The position numbers and the translations under genes were made by a program. A stretch of 64,000 nucleotides of DNA from Nitrospinota bacterium (GTDB taxonomy: Bacteria; JADFOP01): positions 16,747 to 80,746 of the forward strand of contig JADFOP010000005.1 of the NCBI GenBank assembly GCA_022562795.1, written 5' to 3'. How positions within the stretch are numbered: position 1 is the first letter of the stretch; each line of letters starts with the position of its first letter. The notes beneath the pieces were generated by a model, which was given only the letters and a program-made list of their open reading frames with translations, was not told where the DNA came from and ran no database searches. Shown here piece after piece: positions 885-40,495 of this stretch.

Positions 885-1748
885 TTAAGAGTCTTTTTCT
901 AAAGGTTTTGCCAGGAAAAACTTGAGAGATTGGATTAAAGTTTCCTTGAGCTCCCGCCTATCCACTATTTTATCCACCATTCCGTGCTCCAAGAGGAACT
1001 CCGACCGCTGGAACCCCTCGGGCAGCTTCTGAAGAATGGTCTGCTCGATGACCCGTGGGCCTGCGAATCCGATAAGTGCCCTCGGTTCAGCAAATATGAG
1101 GTCCCCCAGCATTGCGTAGCTAGCCGAGACTCCTCCAGTCGTGGGGTCGGCGCACACCGATATAAAAGGTGTGCCCTGCTCGCTGAGTCGGGCAAGGGCG
1201 GCCGATATCTTGGCCATCTGCATAAGGGAGAGAACGCCCTCCTGCATTCGAGCGCCACCTGAGATGGAGACGATAACGAGGGGCATTTGGTGTTCGATGG
1301 CCCTCTCGATAGCCCGCGTGATTTTTTCCCCAACAGCGCTCGCCATGCTCCCTCCGAGGAAGGCGAACTCCATGATGCAAAGCTGTATGGAGATGCCGCC
1401 GAGCTTCGCCTCTCCACATATAACAGCCTCATTGAGACCGGTCTTCTTCACATTCTCCTTAATGCGGTCTTTGTAGAGTTTGGAGTCCTTAAATCCTAAT
1501 GGGTCGAGGGAGGTTATCCCTTGGTCGAACTCCACGAAGGTGTCCGGATCGGCCAACTGCTCCAGGCGCTGATGGGCGCTAATCCGGAAATGGAAATCGC
1601 ATTTGGGGCAGACGTTAAGGTTTTTTTCGAGCTCTTGCTTATAGACGATCTCCTTGCAAGCGTCGCACTTCACCCAAAGCCCCTCGGGCATCTTGACCTT
1701 CTTCTCTCGAATTAGGACCTTAGGCTTAATTTTTTTAAACCACTCCAT
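885..1748 (-). CDS. accD: Acetyl-CoA carboxylase carboxyltransferase beta subunit
   Basis: AccD is one half of the carboxyltransferase that moves CO2 from biotin to acetyl-CoA, the first step of fatty acid synthesis. The 287-residue protein has the expected length. Its N-terminus carries the C4 zinc ribbon (Cys28, Cys31, Cys47, Cys50), followed by the crotonase-fold core with GGSMASAVGEKI, the oxyanion-type SISGGARMQEG and the TTGGVSASYAMLGD loop. The ATG at 1748 starts directly with MEWFKKIKPK, a normal AccD start. It is followed by folC and preceded by leuA on the same strand with only 65 bp between, so it may be read through from the leuA transcript. Confidence 0.97.
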   Translation of the reverse strand: MEWFKKIKPKVLIREKKVKMPEGLWVKCDACKEIVYKQELEKNLNVCPKCDFHFRISAHQRLEQLADPDTFVEFDQGITSLDPLGFKDSKLYKDRIKENVKKTGLNEAVICGEAKLGGISIQLCIMEFAFLGGSMASAVGEKITRAIERAIEHQMPLVIVSISGGARMQEGVLSLMQMAKISAALARLSEQGTPFISVCADPTTGGVSASYAMLGDLIFAEPRALIGFAGPRVIEQTILQKLPEGFQRSEFLLEHGMVDKIVDRRELKETLIQSLKFFLAKPLEKDS

Positions 1749-1813
1749 AGAATTTCTTCCTGGTGGTCTCGGGGACGCCCAGGCGGATAATACGGGAACC
1801 TCCCCTCACACTC

Positions 1814-3376
1814 TTACGGTGTTCCTCTCGGATCTTCCACCTCCCCGGTGGGCTTGCGCTGCCAGTAGATTACCTTGTTCACAGCGTTGAGATAGGCCTT
1901 GGCGCTCGCCTTGATAATATCTGTCGAGTGGCCGATTCCCGTCGTCGCCTCCCCGTCGTAGAAGGATACCTTGACGACCACTTCGCCCTGCGCATCCTTG
2001 CCGCTCGTTACGGCCCTGATGGAATAAGAGAGCAACCGTCCGGGTATCTCTGTAATGCGATCGATAGCTTGGTACGTCGCATCGACCGGCCCTTCACCGA
2101 TAGCGGCATCTAGGAAAACATCCTCGCCCCGGGAGAGCCGAATCGTGGAAGTCGGCACCGTATCGGTCCCGCTGCTGGAATGGAGGTAGACGAGCTTAAA
2201 GGTCTCCGGCACCGGCAATGTATGGTCACGCATAAGCGCCATCAGGTCTTCGTCAAAGACCTCCTTTTTCTTGTCAGCCAGGCGTTTGAAGGCTACGAAG
2301 GCGTCGTTCAGCGCCCCGTCGTCCAATTGAAAGCCCAGCTCCTCCAAGCGCTTGCGAAGGGCGTGGCGCCCCGAATGCTTCCCAAGCACCAGATCGCTCT
2401 TTAATTTCCCGATCGATTGGGGTGTCATAATCTCGTAGGTGGTGGCATCCATAATGACCCCGTGCTGGTGGATGCCCGCCTCGTGGGCGAAGGCGTTCTT
2501 GCCCACAATCGCCTTGTTGGGCTGGACGGGAATCCCCGTGATCGAAGTGAGCATCTGGCTCGTGCGGTATATTTCGTCGAATTTGATGTTGGTGTAGTGG
2601 TGGAGGAAGTCCCGCCGAACCTGTAAGGCCATGACGAACTCCTCCAAGGAGGCGTTGCCCGCCCGCTCGCCGATTCCGTTGATGGTGCACTCGACCTGTC
2701 GGGCTCCGTTTTGAATCGCCGACAGAGAGTTGGCTACGGCCAGGCCCAGATCATCGTGGCAGTGGACGGAAAGGACGGCTTGTTCAATATTAGACACACG
2801 CTCGCGGATCGTGGCAATACGGGCCCCAAATTCATCCGGCGTAGCATAGCCCACGGTGTCGGGTATGTTAACCGTCGTGGCTCCAGCGTCGATGACCGCG
2901 GTGAGCACTTCACAGAGGAAATCCATGTCCGTCCGCGCAGCATCCTCCGGGCTGAACTCCACATCGTCGGTATACTGACGGGCGTGGCGAACCCCGGCCA
3001 CGGCCGCCTCAACAACCTCCTTAGGGGTCATCTTCAGCTTATGTTCCATGTGAATCGGGCTAGTGGCAATGAACGTGTGGATGCGCCCCTGGCGGGCATG
3101 CTGGAGAGCTTCCCAGGCACGATCGATGTCCTTCAAGACCACCCGCGAGAGTCCAGCAATAGTAACCCCGGGGGCATCGACAGTCTGGGCGACGGCCTTG
3201 ACCGCCTCGAAATCTCCTTCCGAGGCGATGGGAAATCCCGCTTCGATGACATCCACCTGGAGCCGTGCAAGCCGGTCGGCCATCTGGACCTTTTCGTCAA
3301 GGTTCATACTGAAGCCGGGCGACTGCTCGCCGTCGCGCAACGTGGTGTCGAAAATTTTAATGCGTTCACCCTTCAT
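1814..3376 (-). CDS. leuA: 2-isopropylmalate synthase
   Basis: LeuA condenses acetyl-CoA with 2-oxoisovalerate, committing carbon to leucine. The 520-residue product has the HMGL-like TIM barrel ([14 protein letters not shown] at the N-terminus, [15 protein letters not shown], the [14 protein letters not shown] loop), then the linker [13 protein letters not shown] and the C-terminal regulatory domain used for leucine feedback. An in-frame ATG exists further upstream at 3460, but homologues start at the [12 protein letters not shown] position, so 3376 is chosen; the extra 28 residues have no family match. A T-box leader and a sigma-70 promoter lie just upstream, so transcription should respond to uncharged leucine tRNA in addition to feedback inhibition. 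Confidence 0.97.
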
Positions 3377-34279: not shown

Positions 34280-34606
34280 TCACCCCTCCTCCTCCCAGGC
34301 GGCGAGGCCCCCTTCGAGGACCGAGACTTTGGAAAACCCCTTTTCTCGGATATTGGCCGCCGAACCGGCGGCCGAGCCTTCGCCCGGTCACGTTCAGTAA
34401 AAGACGACGCCCTGCTCGGGGCCCAACACCGAATAGCGTTGGTCGAGCTCCGCCTTAGGGATCGAGATGGCCCCCGGCAGGCGGTGCTCATTGAAGGACT
34501 CAACCTTCCGGACGTCCACGACGACCAGGTCGGCTGCATCTTGCATGAGCGCCCTAAGCTCCTGGGCGGTAATCCGCGGAACCTGTCCTGCTGTCTCTCC
34601 CGTCAC
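34280..34606 (-). CDS. Rhodanese domain protein with two in-frame TGA codons, probable selenoprotein (Sec-x-Sec)
   Basis: The reverse frame starts at a GTG (34606) behind an excellent AAAGGAGGTGAT site and reads TAQELRALMQDAADLVVVDV, ESFNEHRLPGAISIPKAELD and VVFY, a rhodanese N-terminal half. TGA (34394-34396), ACG, TGA (34388-34390) follow, then PGEGSAAGSAANIREKGF and KVSVLEGGLAAWEEEG to a terminal TGA at 34280. Related rhodaneses have YCTCP or YCACP here, so both active-site cysteines are TGA. Both codons are TGA and not TAA or TAG, the rest of the frame is intact, and a SECIS-like hairpin lies at the right distance. Rhodaneses transfer sulfur (or selenium) between carriers. A pseudogene is the alternative. 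Confidence 0.85.
34355..34373 (-). promoter_or_regulatory. Candidate bacterial SECIS hairpin in the rhodanese gene
   Basis: Perfect 7-bp stem GGCCGCC/GGCGGCC with a 5-nt loop GGTTC (reverse strand). The loop begins 21 nt after the second TGA and 27 nt after the first. E. coli-type SECIS elements have a short stem and a GG-starting apical loop about 16-37 nt after the UGA, so both codons lie in range. The hairpin falls within coding sequence (codons for GSAAGSAA), which could also arise by chance in GC-rich DNA. Confidence 0.65.
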
Positions 34607-34679: not shown

Positions 34680-35768
34680 CTACAGGCCCTGGAAAGCAAT
34701 AATAACCACGCCTGTCACCAGGACGTTGATCAGGCCCAAAGGAAGCATGTACTTCCAGCCGAGCCGCATCAGCTGATCGTAGCGGAAGCGGGGGAGCGTC
34801 CAGCGGATGGTCATAAGCAGCCAGCAGAAGAAGACCACCTTGAAGACGAAGGAGCCCACCTGGAGCAGGACGACGAGCAGGTGGGGCAGGCCGAAAAAGA
34901 AGCCGCCGGGGATGTGAAAGCCGTCGGCCAAGAGGAATGGGACCTGCCAGCCTCCGAAGAAGAGGCTCGTCACTATGCCCGCCACCATCGTAGTCTCGAT
35001 GAAATCGGCGAACATGAACATGCCCCACTTCATTCCGCTGTACTCGGTGAAGTAGCCGATGATCTCGCTTTCGCTCTCTGGCAGGTCGAAGGGGATGCGT
35101 TTGCTCTCGGCCACGGAGGCGGTCAGAAAGAGGAGGAAGGCGACGGGCTGGACCACGACCCCCCACTTCGGGATGAAGCCGAACAGGAGCTCGCCCTGGG
35201 CGCGGTTGATCTCGCTAAGCTGGAGGGTATTGAAGACCATTAGTATCCCGATTATGGCAAGCCCGAGCGTAATCTCGTAGGAGATAAGCTGGGCCGAGGC
35301 CCGAAGGCCCCCCATCAGGGAAAATTTATTGTTTGAAGACCAGCCGGCGAGCACAACCCCGTAGATGCCCATCCCGCCGACGGCGAAGAAATAGAGGATG
35401 CCCACGTTGAAATCGACGACCTGGAGCGGGATTGCGCGGCTCCCAATGTGGAGGACGTCGCCGAAGGGGATGATGGCGAAGGCCACGAGCGGCGGGAAGA
35501 AGGCGATGAAGGGGGCCAGGGTGTGAAGAAATCGGTTGCCCCCAGGCGGTACGAAGTCCTCCTTGGTCATCATCTTGAGCCCGTCGGCGATGGGGTGGAA
35601 GAGGCCGATGAGGCGGAATCCGAAGATATCGGCCCTGTTGGCCCCGATGCGGTCTTGAATGACGGCGCTCTGCTTGCGCTCCACCCACGTCAACAGCCCC
35701 GCCACGTTCATGACGAAGCCGATGACAAGCAATACCTTCACCAAGTCAATGGCGGCGTCGATTATCAT
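34680..35768 (-). CDS. nuoH: NADH-quinone oxidoreductase subunit H
   Basis: NuoH anchors the peripheral arm to the membrane and lines the quinone chamber. The 362-residue protein has eight or nine membrane segments and the conserved loops WVERKQSAVIQDRIGANRA, GLKMMTKEDFVPP, IPFDLPESESEIIGYFTEYSGMKWGMF and the closing LPRFRYDQLMRLGWK. It overlaps nuoG by 4 bp. The genes normally following (nuoI-N) are not here; the rhodanese gene comes next after about 70 bp. Confidence 0.97.
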   Translation of the reverse strand: MIIDAAIDLVKVLLVIGFVMNVAGLLTWVERKQSAVIQDRIGANRADIFGFRLIGLFHPIADGLKMMTKEDFVPPGGNRFLHTLAPFIAFFPPLVAFAIIPFGDVLHIGSRAIPLQVVDFNVGILYFFAVGGMGIYGVVLAGWSSNNKFSLMGGLRASAQLISYEITLGLAIIGILMVFNTLQLSEINRAQGELLFGFIPKWGVVVQPVAFLLFLTASVAESKRIPFDLPESESEIIGYFTEYSGMKWGMFMFADFIETTMVAGIVTSLFFGGWQVPFLLADGFHIPGGFFFGLPHLLVVLLQVGSFVFKVVFFCWLLMTIRWTLPRFRYDQLMRLGWKYMLPLGLINVLVTGVVIIAFQGL

Positions 35769-37396
35769 TCTGCAGCATCCGCCACGGCCACGCCCGTGAG
35801 CTCGCCGCTATGCCCAAGGGTGTCGTAGGAGAGCCCGGCGTAGGGGCCGACGGCCTGGGCGATGGCGTCAAAGACCTCCCGGACGTTTTTATACGGGCAC
35901 TCGACGCCAATGGCCTGGGCCAGGCCCGCCCAGATATCCCACTCAGGAAGGGCCTCGCCGAGGGGCTCCATGGCTTTCATAAATCGCTGCACGCGACCTT
36001 CGAAATTGGTGAAGGTCCCTTCCCTCTCCACGTAGACCGCCGCCGGAAGAACCACGCTTGCCAGCCGCTGCGTGCTCGTAGGGAGCCATCCGACGAAGAT
36101 GAGGGTCTCCAGGCCCTCGAGGGCCTCGGCCTGGTCGCCCTCGGGGAAGAGATGGCTAAGGTCGTGGTGGCAGACGACGAGCGCCTTTATCGAGCCCTTG
36201 CGGCAGCCGGCCAAAATGCCCTTGAGACCTCGCCTGCCTTTGCCCGGCGTGAGGCCCAGGTCGGCGCAGCCGCGGGTATTGGGGTTCTTGTCGGCCTTGA
36301 TGAGAATATCGTCCTCGTAGCCCTCCTCGGCCGGAGACACCCGATAGTCGATGTTTGGCACGCCCAGGCCCTCGCGGAAGAGGCTTTCCAAGACGAAGAG
36401 GTCTTCGTTAGCGCTCTGGGCCGAAGGGATGACGGCGATCGATTCGGGCCCGTGGGCCTCAATTGTCCCCCGGAGGGCCTCGGCAGCCTCCCGGATGGCC
36501 TCCGTCCAGGATACCTGGCGGAAACCCGCGCCGTCGCGGACCAGAGGAAAGAGCAAGCGGTCGGGGTCGTCCACGAACGGGTAGGCGCCGTGGCGGCCGA
36601 AGTCGCACATCCAGTGACCGTTGACCTCGGCGTTGTAGCGCGGCAAGAGCCGATAGACCCGCTTGTGCTCGAAACGAAAGCGGCGCATGGTATGGTGGAC
36701 ATCGATGTTGCAGCCGCGGGAGCACCCGGGACATACGCTCTCGGTCTGCTCCAGATACCAGACCCGGACCTGGAAGCGGAAGTCCTTGTCGGTGAAGGCG
36801 CCTACGGGGCAGATGTCCACGAGGTTGCCCGTGTAGTGGTTCTTCAGGGGCTGGCCCATGAAAGTGGTGATGGTCTTGCGGGAGCCCCGGTCGATGAAGC
36901 CCATCTCCTGGTCACCGACGACCTCGTCACCGAAGCGCACGCAGCGGGTGCAGAGGATACAGCGTTCTTGGTCGAGAACGAGCGTTCCGATATCAATGAC
37001 CTTTCCCTTGACCCATTTCTTATCTTGCATCCGGCTGGAGTACAGACCGTGCTCCATATAGTAGTCCTGGAGCCCGCACTCGCCGGCCTTATCGCAGATG
37101 GGGCAATCGAGAGGGTGGTTGATGAGGAGATACTCCAGGACGTCGGCCCTGGCCTTCTCAACCTCCTCCGACGCCGTACGGACAACCATCCCGTCGGTGA
37201 CGGGTGCCGCGCACGCAATGACGAGCTTGGGGCTCTTTTCCACCTCGACGAGGCACATGCGGCAAGTGCCGTCAATGGAAAGGCCGGGATGATAGCAGTA
37301 GTGGGGGATGGATATGCCCGCCTCCTCGGCGGCATCTATGATGCTCTTCCCCTCGTCGACGTCAATGGTTATGCCGTCAATTTCAACTTTGGGCAT
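35765..37396 (-). CDS. nuoG: NADH-quinone oxidoreductase subunit G (short form)
   Basis: NuoG carries iron-sulfur clusters of the peripheral arm. Seen in order: the [2Fe-2S] ligands around HYCYHPGLSIDGTCRMC, the His-Cys [4Fe-4S] site HPLDCPICDKAGECGLQ, a further CILCTRCVRF, and the 4Fe-4S molybdopterin-type ligands SVCPGCSRGCNID. A shortened molybdopterin-oxidoreductase-like domain completes 543 residues, shorter than the about 700-900 of typical NuoG. It directly follows nuoD without nuoE and nuoF, so the NADH input module is missing from this operon. Confidence 0.94.
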   Translation of the reverse strand: MPKVEIDGITIDVDEGKSIIDAAEEAGISIPHYCYHPGLSIDGTCRMCLVEVEKSPKLVIACAAPVTDGMVVRTASEEVEKARADVLEYLLINHPLDCPICDKAGECGLQDYYMEHGLYSSRMQDKKWVKGKVIDIGTLVLDQERCILCTRCVRFGDEVVGDQEMGFIDRGSRKTITTFMGQPLKNHYTGNLVDICPVGAFTDKDFRFQVRVWYLEQTESVCPGCSRGCNIDVHHTMRRFRFEHKRVYRLLPRYNAEVNGHWMCDFGRHGAYPFVDDPDRLLFPLVRDGAGFRQVSWTEAIREAAEALRGTIEAHGPESIAVIPSAQSANEDLFVLESLFREGLGVPNIDYRVSPAEEGYEDDILIKADKNPNTRGCADLGLTPGKGRRGLKGILAGCRKGSIKALVVCHHDLSHLFPEGDQAEALEGLETLIFVGWLPTSTQRLASVVLPAAVYVEREGTFTNFEGRVQRFMKAMEPLGEALPEWDIWAGLAQAIGVECPYKNVREVFDAIAQAVGPYAGLSYDTLGHSGELTGVAVADAAE

Positions 37397-37422
37397 CGCG
37401 TTGTTCCTCAGAGGACCGACCG

Positions 37423-38823
37423 CTAGCGGTCCAGCTCCCCCCCGATCATGTTGATGGAGCCGAAGGTCGGGACGAGGTCCGCCAGCATGTCACCGATTAA
37501 CATCTTGTCCAATGCGGTCATCAGGGCGAAACACGGCCCTCGGCACCGAACCCGGTACGGTCGTCCTGAGCCGTCGCTCACAATGTAGAAGCCGAGCTCC
37601 CCGTTGGCCCCCTCAACGGCCTGGTAGGCCTCGCCCTTGGGGGGCTTGACGCCGTGGCCGAACATAACCAGCATGAAGTGGTTCATGAGGGACTCGATGT
37701 TTTCGTAGACCTCCTCCTTGGGCGGTAGAAATGCCCTGCGGTCGTCGGCGGCCACAACGTCGTGGTATATCCTCTCGCTCCCTTCAAGGGTGGGATCGAG
37801 GTCGACCTTGACATCGTAAAGGTCCTTGAAAGACTCCTTTTGCTTGGCCAACTCGAGCATATACTCCGTATCTATGGGTTCCCCCGTAAGGTCGGCGAAA
37901 ATGGGGCCGGGTGGCATTTGTTCTAAGCATTGCTCGATGATGCGGCAGCTCTGCTCTATCTCCTCCATTCTGAGGAGGTATCGGTCGAAGTTGTCTCCGT
38001 TCGTCCCCAGCGGGACGATGAAGTCCATCCGGTCGTAGACGAGGTAGGGGTTGGCTTTGCGCACATCGTAGTTGACACCGGTAGAGCGAAGAAACGGGCC
38101 GGTAAAGGCGTGGGCGATGGCAACCTCATCAGAGATGACCCCAACATCGCGCATCCTATCGATGAAGATTCGGTTCCTGGTGAGCAGGCCGTGGCACTCA
38201 TCGACAATTTTGCGGACCCTCTCTAAGGCCTCCCGGCAGCGGCCCTCAAAGCCTTCGGGCAGGTCGGCCTTCACCCCGCCCACCCGTCCGTAGCTGACGG
38301 TCAGGCGGGCCCCTGTGACCTCTTCGACCAGGTCGTAGAGAAACTCCCGCGCCTCGATGAGGTAGAGGAATACCGTAAAGGCCCCGAGTTCCATCGCCGA
38401 TGCGCCAATACAGGTCACGTGATCGGTGATTCTCGATATCTCGGACATCAGGGTGCGGATGTACTGGCACCGCTCGGGGGTGGTGATCCCATACAGTTTC
38501 TCAACTGTCATGGCATAGCCGACGTTGTTGATTATGGGCGATACGTAGTTGAGCCGATCGGTGTACGGGATGGCTTGATTGTAGCCCCCTATCTCGCAGC
38601 TTTTCTCGAAGGCCCTGTGGAGGTAGCCGATTTCCACATCGGCGTCCAAGATCGTCTCGCCCTCCAGGTGGACGAGGATGCGAACGATCCCGTGCATGGC
38701 TGGATGAGCCGGCCCCATGTTCAAGAACATTTCCTGGAACCGAAGTCCGCCCTCATCGCCCTCCTCATCGACATGGGACGGGATGCCCTCTAGCTCTTCT
38801 GTTGTCTTGGGCTCTTCAGCCAT
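37423..38823 (-). CDS. nuoD: NADH-quinone oxidoreductase subunit D
   Basis: NuoD forms the quinone site with NuoB, NuoC and NuoH. The product (about 466 residues) shows FLNMGPAHPAMHGIVRI, EIGYLHRAFEKSCE, AIPYTDRLNYVSP, ELGAFTVFLYLIEAREF and the C-terminal DKMLIGDMLADLVPTFGSINMIGGELDR. The N-terminal 25 residues are acidic and not conserved. Start M at 38823 or 38832. It lies 25 bp after nuoC. Confidence 0.97.
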   Translation of the reverse strand: MAEEPKTTEELEGIPSHVDEEGDEGGLRFQEMFLNMGPAHPAMHGIVRILVHLEGETILDADVEIGYLHRAFEKSCEIGGYNQAIPYTDRLNYVSPIINNVGYAMTVEKLYGITTPERCQYIRTLMSEISRITDHVTCIGASAMELGAFTVFLYLIEAREFLYDLVEEVTGARLTVSYGRVGGVKADLPEGFEGRCREALERVRKIVDECHGLLTRNRIFIDRMRDVGVISDEVAIAHAFTGPFLRSTGVNYDVRKANPYLVYDRMDFIVPLGTNGDNFDRYLLRMEEIEQSCRIIEQCLEQMPPGPIFADLTGEPIDTEYMLELAKQKESFKDLYDVKVDLDPTLEGSERIYHDVVAADDRRAFLPPKEEVYENIESLMNHFMLVMFGHGVKPPKGEAYQAVEGANGELGFYIVSDGSGRPYRVRCRGPCFALMTALDKMLIGDMLADLVPTFGSINMIGGELDR

Positions 38824-38847
38824 CCTGCTCAATCCTCACCCGGCGCC

Positions 38848-39348
38848 TCAGTTCTTCGGCCCCACGAGGGGCTGGCGACGGGAGATAGCGTAGTCCTTCC
38901 TCAACGGGTAGCCCTCGAATTCCTCATACATGAGGATGCGGCGCAGGTCGGGGTGACCCTCAAAAACGACCCCAAACATATCCCACGCCTCCCGCTCCAG
39001 CCAGTCGGCGACCGGCCAAAGCTCCACGACGCTGGCGATTGTGGGGTCGTCCTCCGCCACCGGGCACTTAATTCGGACCCGGTGGTTGTGCTCGAGCGAG
39101 TAGAGATGGTAGACGACCTCGAAGCGGGCCATGCCCTCCCGCCCGGGGTATTGGAGGTAGTCCACGCACGTTAGGTCCATTAGGAAGTTGTAGGCGAGCT
39201 TCGGCTCTTCCTTACAGAACCGCAGGAGGTCTCGGTTGGCCTCTGGCTCAACTACAACGGTGTCGTCGCCGTGAGGGGTGTGGGCCTCAAGGATGACGGA
39301 ACTAAATTGCTTTTGAAGTAATTGCAGCGTGATGCTGGGCTTGCTCAT
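38848..39348 (-). CDS. nuoC: NADH-quinone oxidoreductase subunit C
   Basis: The 166-residue protein has the 30-kDa subunit pattern: FLMDLTCVDYLQYPGREGM, the VVYHLYSLEHNHRVRIKCPV strand pair, WPVADWLEREAWDMFGVVFEGHPDLRRILM and EGYPLRKDYAI. It is separate from nuoD, as in most non-enterobacterial operons. It follows nuoB by 8 bp. Confidence 0.96.
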   Translation of the reverse strand: MSKPSITLQLLQKQFSSVILEAHTPHGDDTVVVEPEANRDLLRFCKEEPKLAYNFLMDLTCVDYLQYPGREGMARFEVVYHLYSLEHNHRVRIKCPVAEDDPTIASVVELWPVADWLEREAWDMFGVVFEGHPDLRRILMYEEFEGYPLRKDYAISRRQPLVGPKN

Positions 39349-39356
39349 GGGCCTCG

Positions 39357-39851
39357 CTACGCCCTGACCTGCCCCGGCAAGAATTCCTGCTTCTCGCCCT
39401 GAATCTTATCCTGGAGCATCATTAGGCCGTGGAGAACCGTCTCTGGCCGCGGCGGGCAACCCGGGATGTAGAGGTCAACGGGGATGATCGTGTCGATGCC
39501 CTGCACGGTGGCGTAGTTGTCGTAGAATCCGCCGGAAACGGTGCACACTCCGAAGGCGACAACCCACTTGGGCTCACACATCTGCTCGTAGATTTTTACC
39601 AGGACAGGAGCGATCTTGTGGCTGATGGTGCCAACTACGAAAAGCACATCCGCCTGGCGTGGGCTGAACCGCGGCAAGCCGGCCCCGAACCTGTCGATGT
39701 CGTAGTGGGAGCATGCGGTCGACATATATTCCATCCCACAGCAGGCCGTCACAAAGGGGTACTGAAAGATGGAATACTTGCGAGCCCAGCCGAGCACCTT
39801 ATCAAGTCGAGACAGGAGAACGCCGCCCTCTAAAGCTTTTTCTAATCCCAT
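39357..39851 (-). CDS. nuoB: NADH-quinone oxidoreductase subunit B
   Basis: NuoB holds the N2 [4Fe-4S] cluster that hands electrons to quinone. The 164-residue protein has the ligands in FVTACCGMEYMS (adjacent cysteines), FGVCTVSGGFY and YIPGCPPRPET. The start MGLEKALEGG at 39851 is chosen over the long frame to 40070. It overlaps nuoA by 10 bp. Confidence 0.97.
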   Translation of the reverse strand: MGLEKALEGGVLLSRLDKVLGWARKYSIFQYPFVTACCGMEYMSTACSHYDIDRFGAGLPRFSPRQADVLFVVGTISHKIAPVLVKIYEQMCEPKWVVAFGVCTVSGGFYDNYATVQGIDTIIPVDLYIPGCPPRPETVLHGLMMLQDKIQGEKQEFLPGQVRA

Positions 39852-40195
39852 TCCAACGCTCCTCGTTTCCACACGTAGACCAGGGCCGCCCCCAGGATGA
39901 AGATGAAGAATGTCATCTCCACAAGGCCGAACACCCCAAGGTCGCGAAAGATTACCGCCCATGGGTACATGAACACCACCTCTACATCGAAGATGATGAA
40001 GAGCATGGCAACCAAGTAAAACTTGACGCTGAAACGCGGGCGTTGGGGACCTATGGGAGAGGAGCCGCACTCGAAGGGCTCCTCCTTAACGCGGGTGAGG
40101 CGCTTGGGCCCCATGAACTCGCCCATGGCGAGCATCGCGCCGGCAAGACCCCCAGCGAGAAGAATCATAAGGAACAAAGGAAAGGCTTCAGCCAC
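39842..40195 (-). CDS. nuoA: NADH-quinone oxidoreductase subunit A
   Basis: The 117-residue membrane subunit has three helices and the conserved loop EPFECGSSPIGPQRPRFSVKFY with the quinone-site cysteine, then LFIIFDVEVVFMYPWAV. The start is taken as the GTG at 40195, which has a GGAGAG site and gives the family N-terminus; the ATG at 40258 would add 21 unrelated residues. It is the first gene of the nuoABCDGH operon. Confidence 0.93.
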   Translation of the reverse strand: MAEAFPLFLMILLAGGLAGAMLAMGEFMGPKRLTRVKEEPFECGSSPIGPQRPRFSVKFYLVAMLFIIFDVEVVFMYPWAVIFRDLGVFGLVEMTFFIFILGAALVYVWKRGALEWD

Positions 40196-40495
40196 GTCAC
40201 TCTCCACTGAGGATGATAGCTTGCAGGGCGAACCTCGGACCCAACAGAGCGAGCCCAAACAACCCTCTTGTACCCGATTCCCAATCCAATGGCAAGACCT
40301 AACCAGCGTCTACATGTCACTCACGAACCTGGAGCAACGTCAGGGAAAAGGCTTCCCATTGATAAATATTTCACGTGCAAAATACTGATTATGCGCTCCA
40401 AGGATACCCCTTGATAACCCTTCCTAAGTATGGGAAACCATAGGTCTTTTTTCAAGCCCTACCAAGTCGAGTGGCGATCGACCTCACGCCGAGAC

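Follow-up and report, generated by a model that had tools for sequence, protein, structure and literature searches.

A rhodanese gene with two in-frame TGA codons from a Nitrospinota bacterium: a probable Sec-Thr-Sec selenoprotein

Introduction

The 64-kb window considered here, meaning the whole stretch of DNA that was analysed, carries on its minus strand a rhodanese gene that is interrupted twice by TGA in the active-site loop. The question raised by this locus is whether the two codons end a decaying gene or specify selenocysteine (Sec). An earlier note, made from the letters alone, had read the product as a Sec-Thr-Sec selenoprotein. That reading is the best explanation of the present evidence: the TGAs are conserved, homologues carry Cys in their place, a downstream hairpin covaries, and the genome holds tRNA-Sec together with a Sec-type selD. 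On these comparative grounds, we assign a probability of about 0.93 to the prediction that the gene encodes a single-domain rhodanese with Sec at both positions of a U-T-U motif, the UGAs being decoded as Sec. The enzyme almost certainly carries two selenium atoms in its active site, and the same double site in unrelated bacteria marks a real variant of a known family and not a broken gene. An ordinary gene caller would truncate the protein at 70 residues.

Reading frame and translation start

The coding sequence lies directly after nuoH and runs on the minus strand from a GTG at 34606 to 34280. The frame comprises 109 codons and is closed by a third TGA (34282–34280), the true stop, which gives a product of 108 amino acids when both internal TGAs are read as residues. 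In codon order, the first TGA occupies 34396–34394, an ACG 34393–34391, and the second TGA 34390–34388, and this triplet of codons sits exactly after the strand VVFY, in the active-site loop. Predicted Sec-71 takes the conserved catalytic Cys position of rhodaneses, a column that is Cys in all Cys homologues; predicted Sec-73 follows two residues later, where homologues have Sec or Cys. Apart from TGA-ACG-TGA the frame is open, with no further stop and no frameshift. The continuous frame described in the earlier note is confirmed on the minus strand up to the third TGA, and the signs of decay that it had looked for are indeed missing, as neither a frameshift nor a TAA or TAG occurs inside the domain.

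The start codon was proposed to stand behind a near-perfect ribosome site, and this is borne out. The strong Shine-Dalgarno sequence AAAGGAGGTGAT (34623–34612, minus strand) is an exact match and unique within the window, where 0.29 chance matches of this type with at most one mismatch are expected. It is also found before a paralogue on contig C20 of the same genome. The TGA-NNN-TGA pattern by itself proves little and is not rare: a mechanical test placed it inside long open frames at four sites in the 64-kb window. What goes beyond chance is that this TGA pair falls in a rhodanese active site, that relatives conserve it, and that a hairpin follows.

Domain, fold, and family assignment

Assignment to the rhodanese domain is firm. 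The product scores 62.1 bits against Pfam Rhodanese (PF00581; cut-off 22.2), and the AlphaFold model, built with 30 relatives, adopts a rhodanese fold with a pLDDT of 88. The top Foldseek matches of this model are rhodanese domains (E 6e-9, TM 0.85). In the rhodanese alignment, the column of the first TGA is the invariant Cys.

Placement among the known selenoproteins is less direct. A 2026 review distinguishes five rhodanese selenoprotein forms, with the motifs UxxS, UxxG (twice), CxU, and UxxxxU (PMC13188914). NF041203 ("rhodanese_LYCAU", form 3) is the best NCBIfam match for this protein and also for those UxU and CxU relatives that were scanned; in this family, too, Sec stands two residues past the catalytic position (PMC13188914, PMC9312934). 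Form 3 is listed with a single Sec in a CxU motif, whereas the present protein, with UTU, also has Sec predicted at the catalytic Cys position. The two copies in this genome score 73.1 and 65.8 bits and the relatives 54.5–107.7 bits, all short of the cut-off of 115. A UxU rhodanese was found neither in PMC13188914 nor in text searches of the literature, the coverage of which stops short of bioRxiv, most subscription journals, and supplements. In view of these scores and the lack of a published UxU rhodanese in the sources searched, the gene was not filed as a member of NF041203. It is apparently an unreported UxU variant within a known kind of rhodanese selenoprotein.

Other relatives differ in motif or in chemistry. 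CxC rhodaneses of the YCxCP type, including fusions annotated as DedA/thiosulfate sulfurtransferase GlpE, share the domain and the same two positions but have Cys at both and lack the SECIS hairpin; some CxU relatives are DedA-type fusions too. Forms 1, 2, and 4 (UxxS, UxxG) have a Sec rhodanese domain in common with the present protein, with a different motif. TsoB (form 5) also has two Sec residues, but with UxxxxU spacing in a DsbD-like fusion (PMC13188914), and this protein scores low with its model (16 bits; cut-off 805). GlpE (PDB 1gmx) and other solved single-domain rhodaneses share the fold and the position of the catalytic loop but are Cys enzymes. In the alignment, the loop of ordinary rhodaneses is two residues shorter than that of the CxC/CxU/UxU group.

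A covarying SECIS hairpin

Bacterial SECIS elements are described by a loop of 3–9 nt, a stem of 4–16 bp, a G in the first two loop bases, a distance of 16–37 nt from the UGA, and a minimum free energy of −7.5 or lower (PMC13188914). The hairpin at 34373–34355 on the minus strand (GGCCGCC-GGTTC-GGCGGCC) has a 7-bp stem and the 5-nt loop GGTTC, and its segment folds at −22.9 kcal/mol. The apical loop starts 21 nt past the second TGA and 27 nt past the first. These values lie within the published ranges. The SECIS-like hairpin that had been noticed at the right distance is real and agrees with the bacterial model.

Comparison across genes gives stronger evidence. The motif used to collect 29 Sec genes demanded a TGA at the second position but made no reference to the hairpin. 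All 29 have a five-pair stem and a five-base loop at the same place, with 16 nt from the second TGA to the stem, 21 nt from the second TGA to the loop, and 27 nt from the first TGA to the loop. Standard pairs fill 144 of the 145 cells of the core stem. Changes on both sides of a pair affect 23 cells against a shuffled mean of 6.9, and none of 500 shuffles reached the observed covariation score, in a control that ignores the relatedness of the genes. Structures slid away from the true position pair much worse (26–63% of cells). The second loop base is G in every Sec gene, followed by T or G. Five CxC genes keep two to four of the five stem pairs, mostly without G at that loop position, and when six Sec genes were recoded synonymously, the feature survived in 1.4–8% of trials. 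The minimum-energy z-scores of single hairpins are modest, at about −1, because the region is GC-rich; the case for a SECIS element therefore rests on covariation and position. Rfam returned nothing above threshold at the rhodanese locus.

Paralogue, orthologue, and distant relatives

The paralogue on contig C20 is 70% identical and has the same U-T-U and the same hairpin. Between the two copies, dN is 0.19, dS 1.0, and dN/dS 0.19. Their dS is 0.44 after the second TGA against 1.49 before the first, in a small sample; an additional constraint on the RNA in this part would produce such a difference. A genome of the same genus (Nitrospinae bacterium AH_259_B05_G02_I21) contains an orthologue of the C20 copy, 94% identical to it, in which the middle codon has changed from Thr to Ala and both TGAs are kept (U-A-U). 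A narrow-pattern scan of public genomes gave no match besides this record.

Two broader searches covered a domain-wide sample of 386 genomes and the 84 genomes of the phylum of one UxU-bearing genome, G318. In the former, 20 of 69 matches have TGA, one has TAA (at the end of its own gene), and none has TAG; in the latter, TGA occurs in 15 of 16 matches and neither TAA nor TAG in any. The UxU set comprises the two copies described here, the same-genus genome, genomes G034 and G018, and G318 with nine more members of its phylum. Outside the genus, at least 12 genomes from three lineages thus have UxU. The phylum of G034 holds that one genome only. The CxU type occurs in many lineages, and plasmid-borne CxC homologues are found in Pseudomonas, Caballeronia, Xanthomonas, Cupriavidus, and Burkholderia. 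A tree that masks the active-site columns calls for at least three changes to account for UxU; it has no well-supported branches against a single origin.

Aligning homologues had been suggested as a check on the two positions. Throughout the CxC, CxU, and UxU genes collected, both are Sec or Cys, and the paralogue and orthologue keep both TGAs. The correspondence of the TGAs to the cysteines of YCxCP stands as well, since other homologues have Cys there and none has Ser. A related rhodanese elsewhere (L075, G310:C2:49393-49707) has a single in-frame TGA five residues past its Cys (FYCSGSTUGQS), a different Sec position.

Selenium machinery of the genome

A tRNA-Sec is present (77.6 bits; SeC by ARAGORN, anticodon UCA), and so is selD, with an in-frame TGA of its own in the active site (GG-U-ACK) and split over two contigs. 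Neither selA nor selB was found in the assembly, which is 97.1% complete in 84 contigs. Of the sel genes that the earlier note proposed to look for, selC and selD were thus recovered, and selA and selB are absent here though adjacent to each other in the same-genus genome; selB was also detected in all 22 other genomes tested. In the same-genus genome the pair stands beside scpA, and the scpA contig of the present genome has other genes there, in a different arrangement. Neither gene was seen near the selD end on the contig that carries it. Both the absence from a largely complete assembly and the rearranged scpA region weigh against two-Sec decoding. The simplest explanation would be that about 3.3 kb is missing from the assembly.

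As to the assembly itself, contig C27 breaks off after the N-terminal part of selD, and the C-terminal part continues in frame into a fragment of a PAS/histidine kinase (L030, G000:C45:16036-16257). The contig that makes this junction is probably chimeric.

A pseudogene, with translation ending at the first TGA and the rest of the gene in decay, is suggested by the two in-frame stops taken alone and by the missing selA and selB. It is contradicted by the comparative evidence and was rejected as very improbable: purifying selection on the two paralogues continues past the TGAs, the TGAs are conserved across lineages, and the hairpin covaries. Reassignment of TGA throughout the genome, for example to Trp or Gly, would account for the open frames and nothing more. 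The genome has a tRNA-Sec, homologues have Cys at these positions, and ordinary genes end at TGA, among them nuoG (in an ATGA overlap with nuoH) and the rhodanese itself. The chance of reassignment is negligible, and this explanation was also rejected.

Proposed decoding and catalytic role

Under two-Sec decoding, SelB and Sec-tRNA(UCA), guided by one downstream SECIS hairpin, would insert Sec at both UGAs. A single hairpin is assumed to serve the two codons, which are six bases apart and precede its apical loop by 27 and 21 nt, and the third UGA would terminate the protein. In ordinary rhodaneses, the nucleophilic Cys carries the persulfide. Sec-71 would take the place of this Cys and carry the sulfane sulfur, and Sec-73, two residues on, may act as a built-in resolving group. 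Sulfur bound as Se-S could then leave as sulfide; alternatively, the enzyme could reduce a substrate that is a thiol, a persulfide, or a selenium compound. A transient Se-Se bond would form and be reopened by thioredoxin- or glutathione-type reductants. From this analysis, a redox or persulfide-handling enzyme is slightly favoured over a plain thiosulfate:cyanide sulfurtransferase.

Two features of relatives are hints that support a redox role. In genome G390 (L098, C867, about 1381–3282), one reading frame combines a UxU rhodanese, signal-like at its N-terminus, HEAT-like repeats, and an AhpC/TSA-like domain (domain names assigned by eye). The AhpC/TSA-like domain has its own in-frame TGA in a UxxC motif (ADW-U-GYC), and the frame possibly encodes a three-Sec protein. 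Several UxU and CxU relatives also begin with a hydrophobic, signal-like stretch, which suggests extracytoplasmic redox work. The present protein is without such an N-terminus and is probably cytosolic. A wider proposal is put forward tentatively, at somewhat under even odds: that these genes form an unreported set of rhodaneses in several uncultured lineages, one of them in frame with a Sec peroxiredoxin-like domain. In this set, the catalytic Cys would have become Sec within a diselenide-forming U-x-U, one SECIS would serve two UGAs six bases apart, and redox or persulfide reduction would have replaced sulfur transfer as the function.

A two-Sec protein might instead retain ordinary rhodanese function. 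It would then be a (seleno)sulfurtransferase, moving sulfane sulfur or supplying SelD with selenium, and the second Sec would do no more than tune its reactivity. The intact fold and catalytic position fit such a role, as does the use of selenium by the genome. However, several lineages conserve a second Sec two residues from the first, which suggests a redox cycle with two chalcogens, the G390 fusion to a Sec peroxiredoxin-like domain points the same way, and the contexts inspected contain no conserved link to selD, selA, or selB. We regard plain sulfur or selenium transfer as rather unlikely. Binding of a metal or metalloid (Hg, As, Cu, Zn) as the main task of the UxU loop is more doubtful still. 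CxC pairs are common metal-binding motifs. Other double-Sec proteins, NF045648 and NF041115, are also annotated as metal-binding (PMC13188914). Yet the UxU site coincides with the rhodanese catalytic pocket, the fold is conserved, and no metal-resistance genes were recognised beside the gene.

In the UxU form, selenium would occupy both the nucleophile position of the rhodanese and that of its partner two residues further on. This form allows a direct test of whether replacing sulfur by selenium at both sites turns a sulfurtransferase into a redox enzyme, and it is a natural case in which to ask with what efficiency a single bacterial SECIS can serve two adjacent UGAs. The motif is also an addition to the known prokaryotic selenoproteins. 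A profile of UxU and CxU with the fixed hairpin could be used to find more such genes.

Gene neighbourhood

The immediate upstream gene, nuoH (34680–35768, minus strand), ends at 34680 and leaves a gap of 73 nt to the rhodanese start. The nuo cluster (34680–40258 of the window) runs A-B-C-D-G-H and then stops; nuoI–N are not adjacent on that side, and the UxU rhodanese occupies the place where nuoI often follows. From the position after nuoH, a link to redox or to selenium/sulfur supply had been suggested. A link to nuoH is not supported, and one to the nuo operon was rejected as a general feature, because the genes around the C20 paralogue and around the distant relatives are different ones and the neighbourhood is not conserved. 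On contig C20, a YdiU/SelO family gene (L009 5040-6527, G000:C20; 513.8 bits with the YdiU model) lies on the same strand as the UxU rhodanese, with one TPR gene between them.
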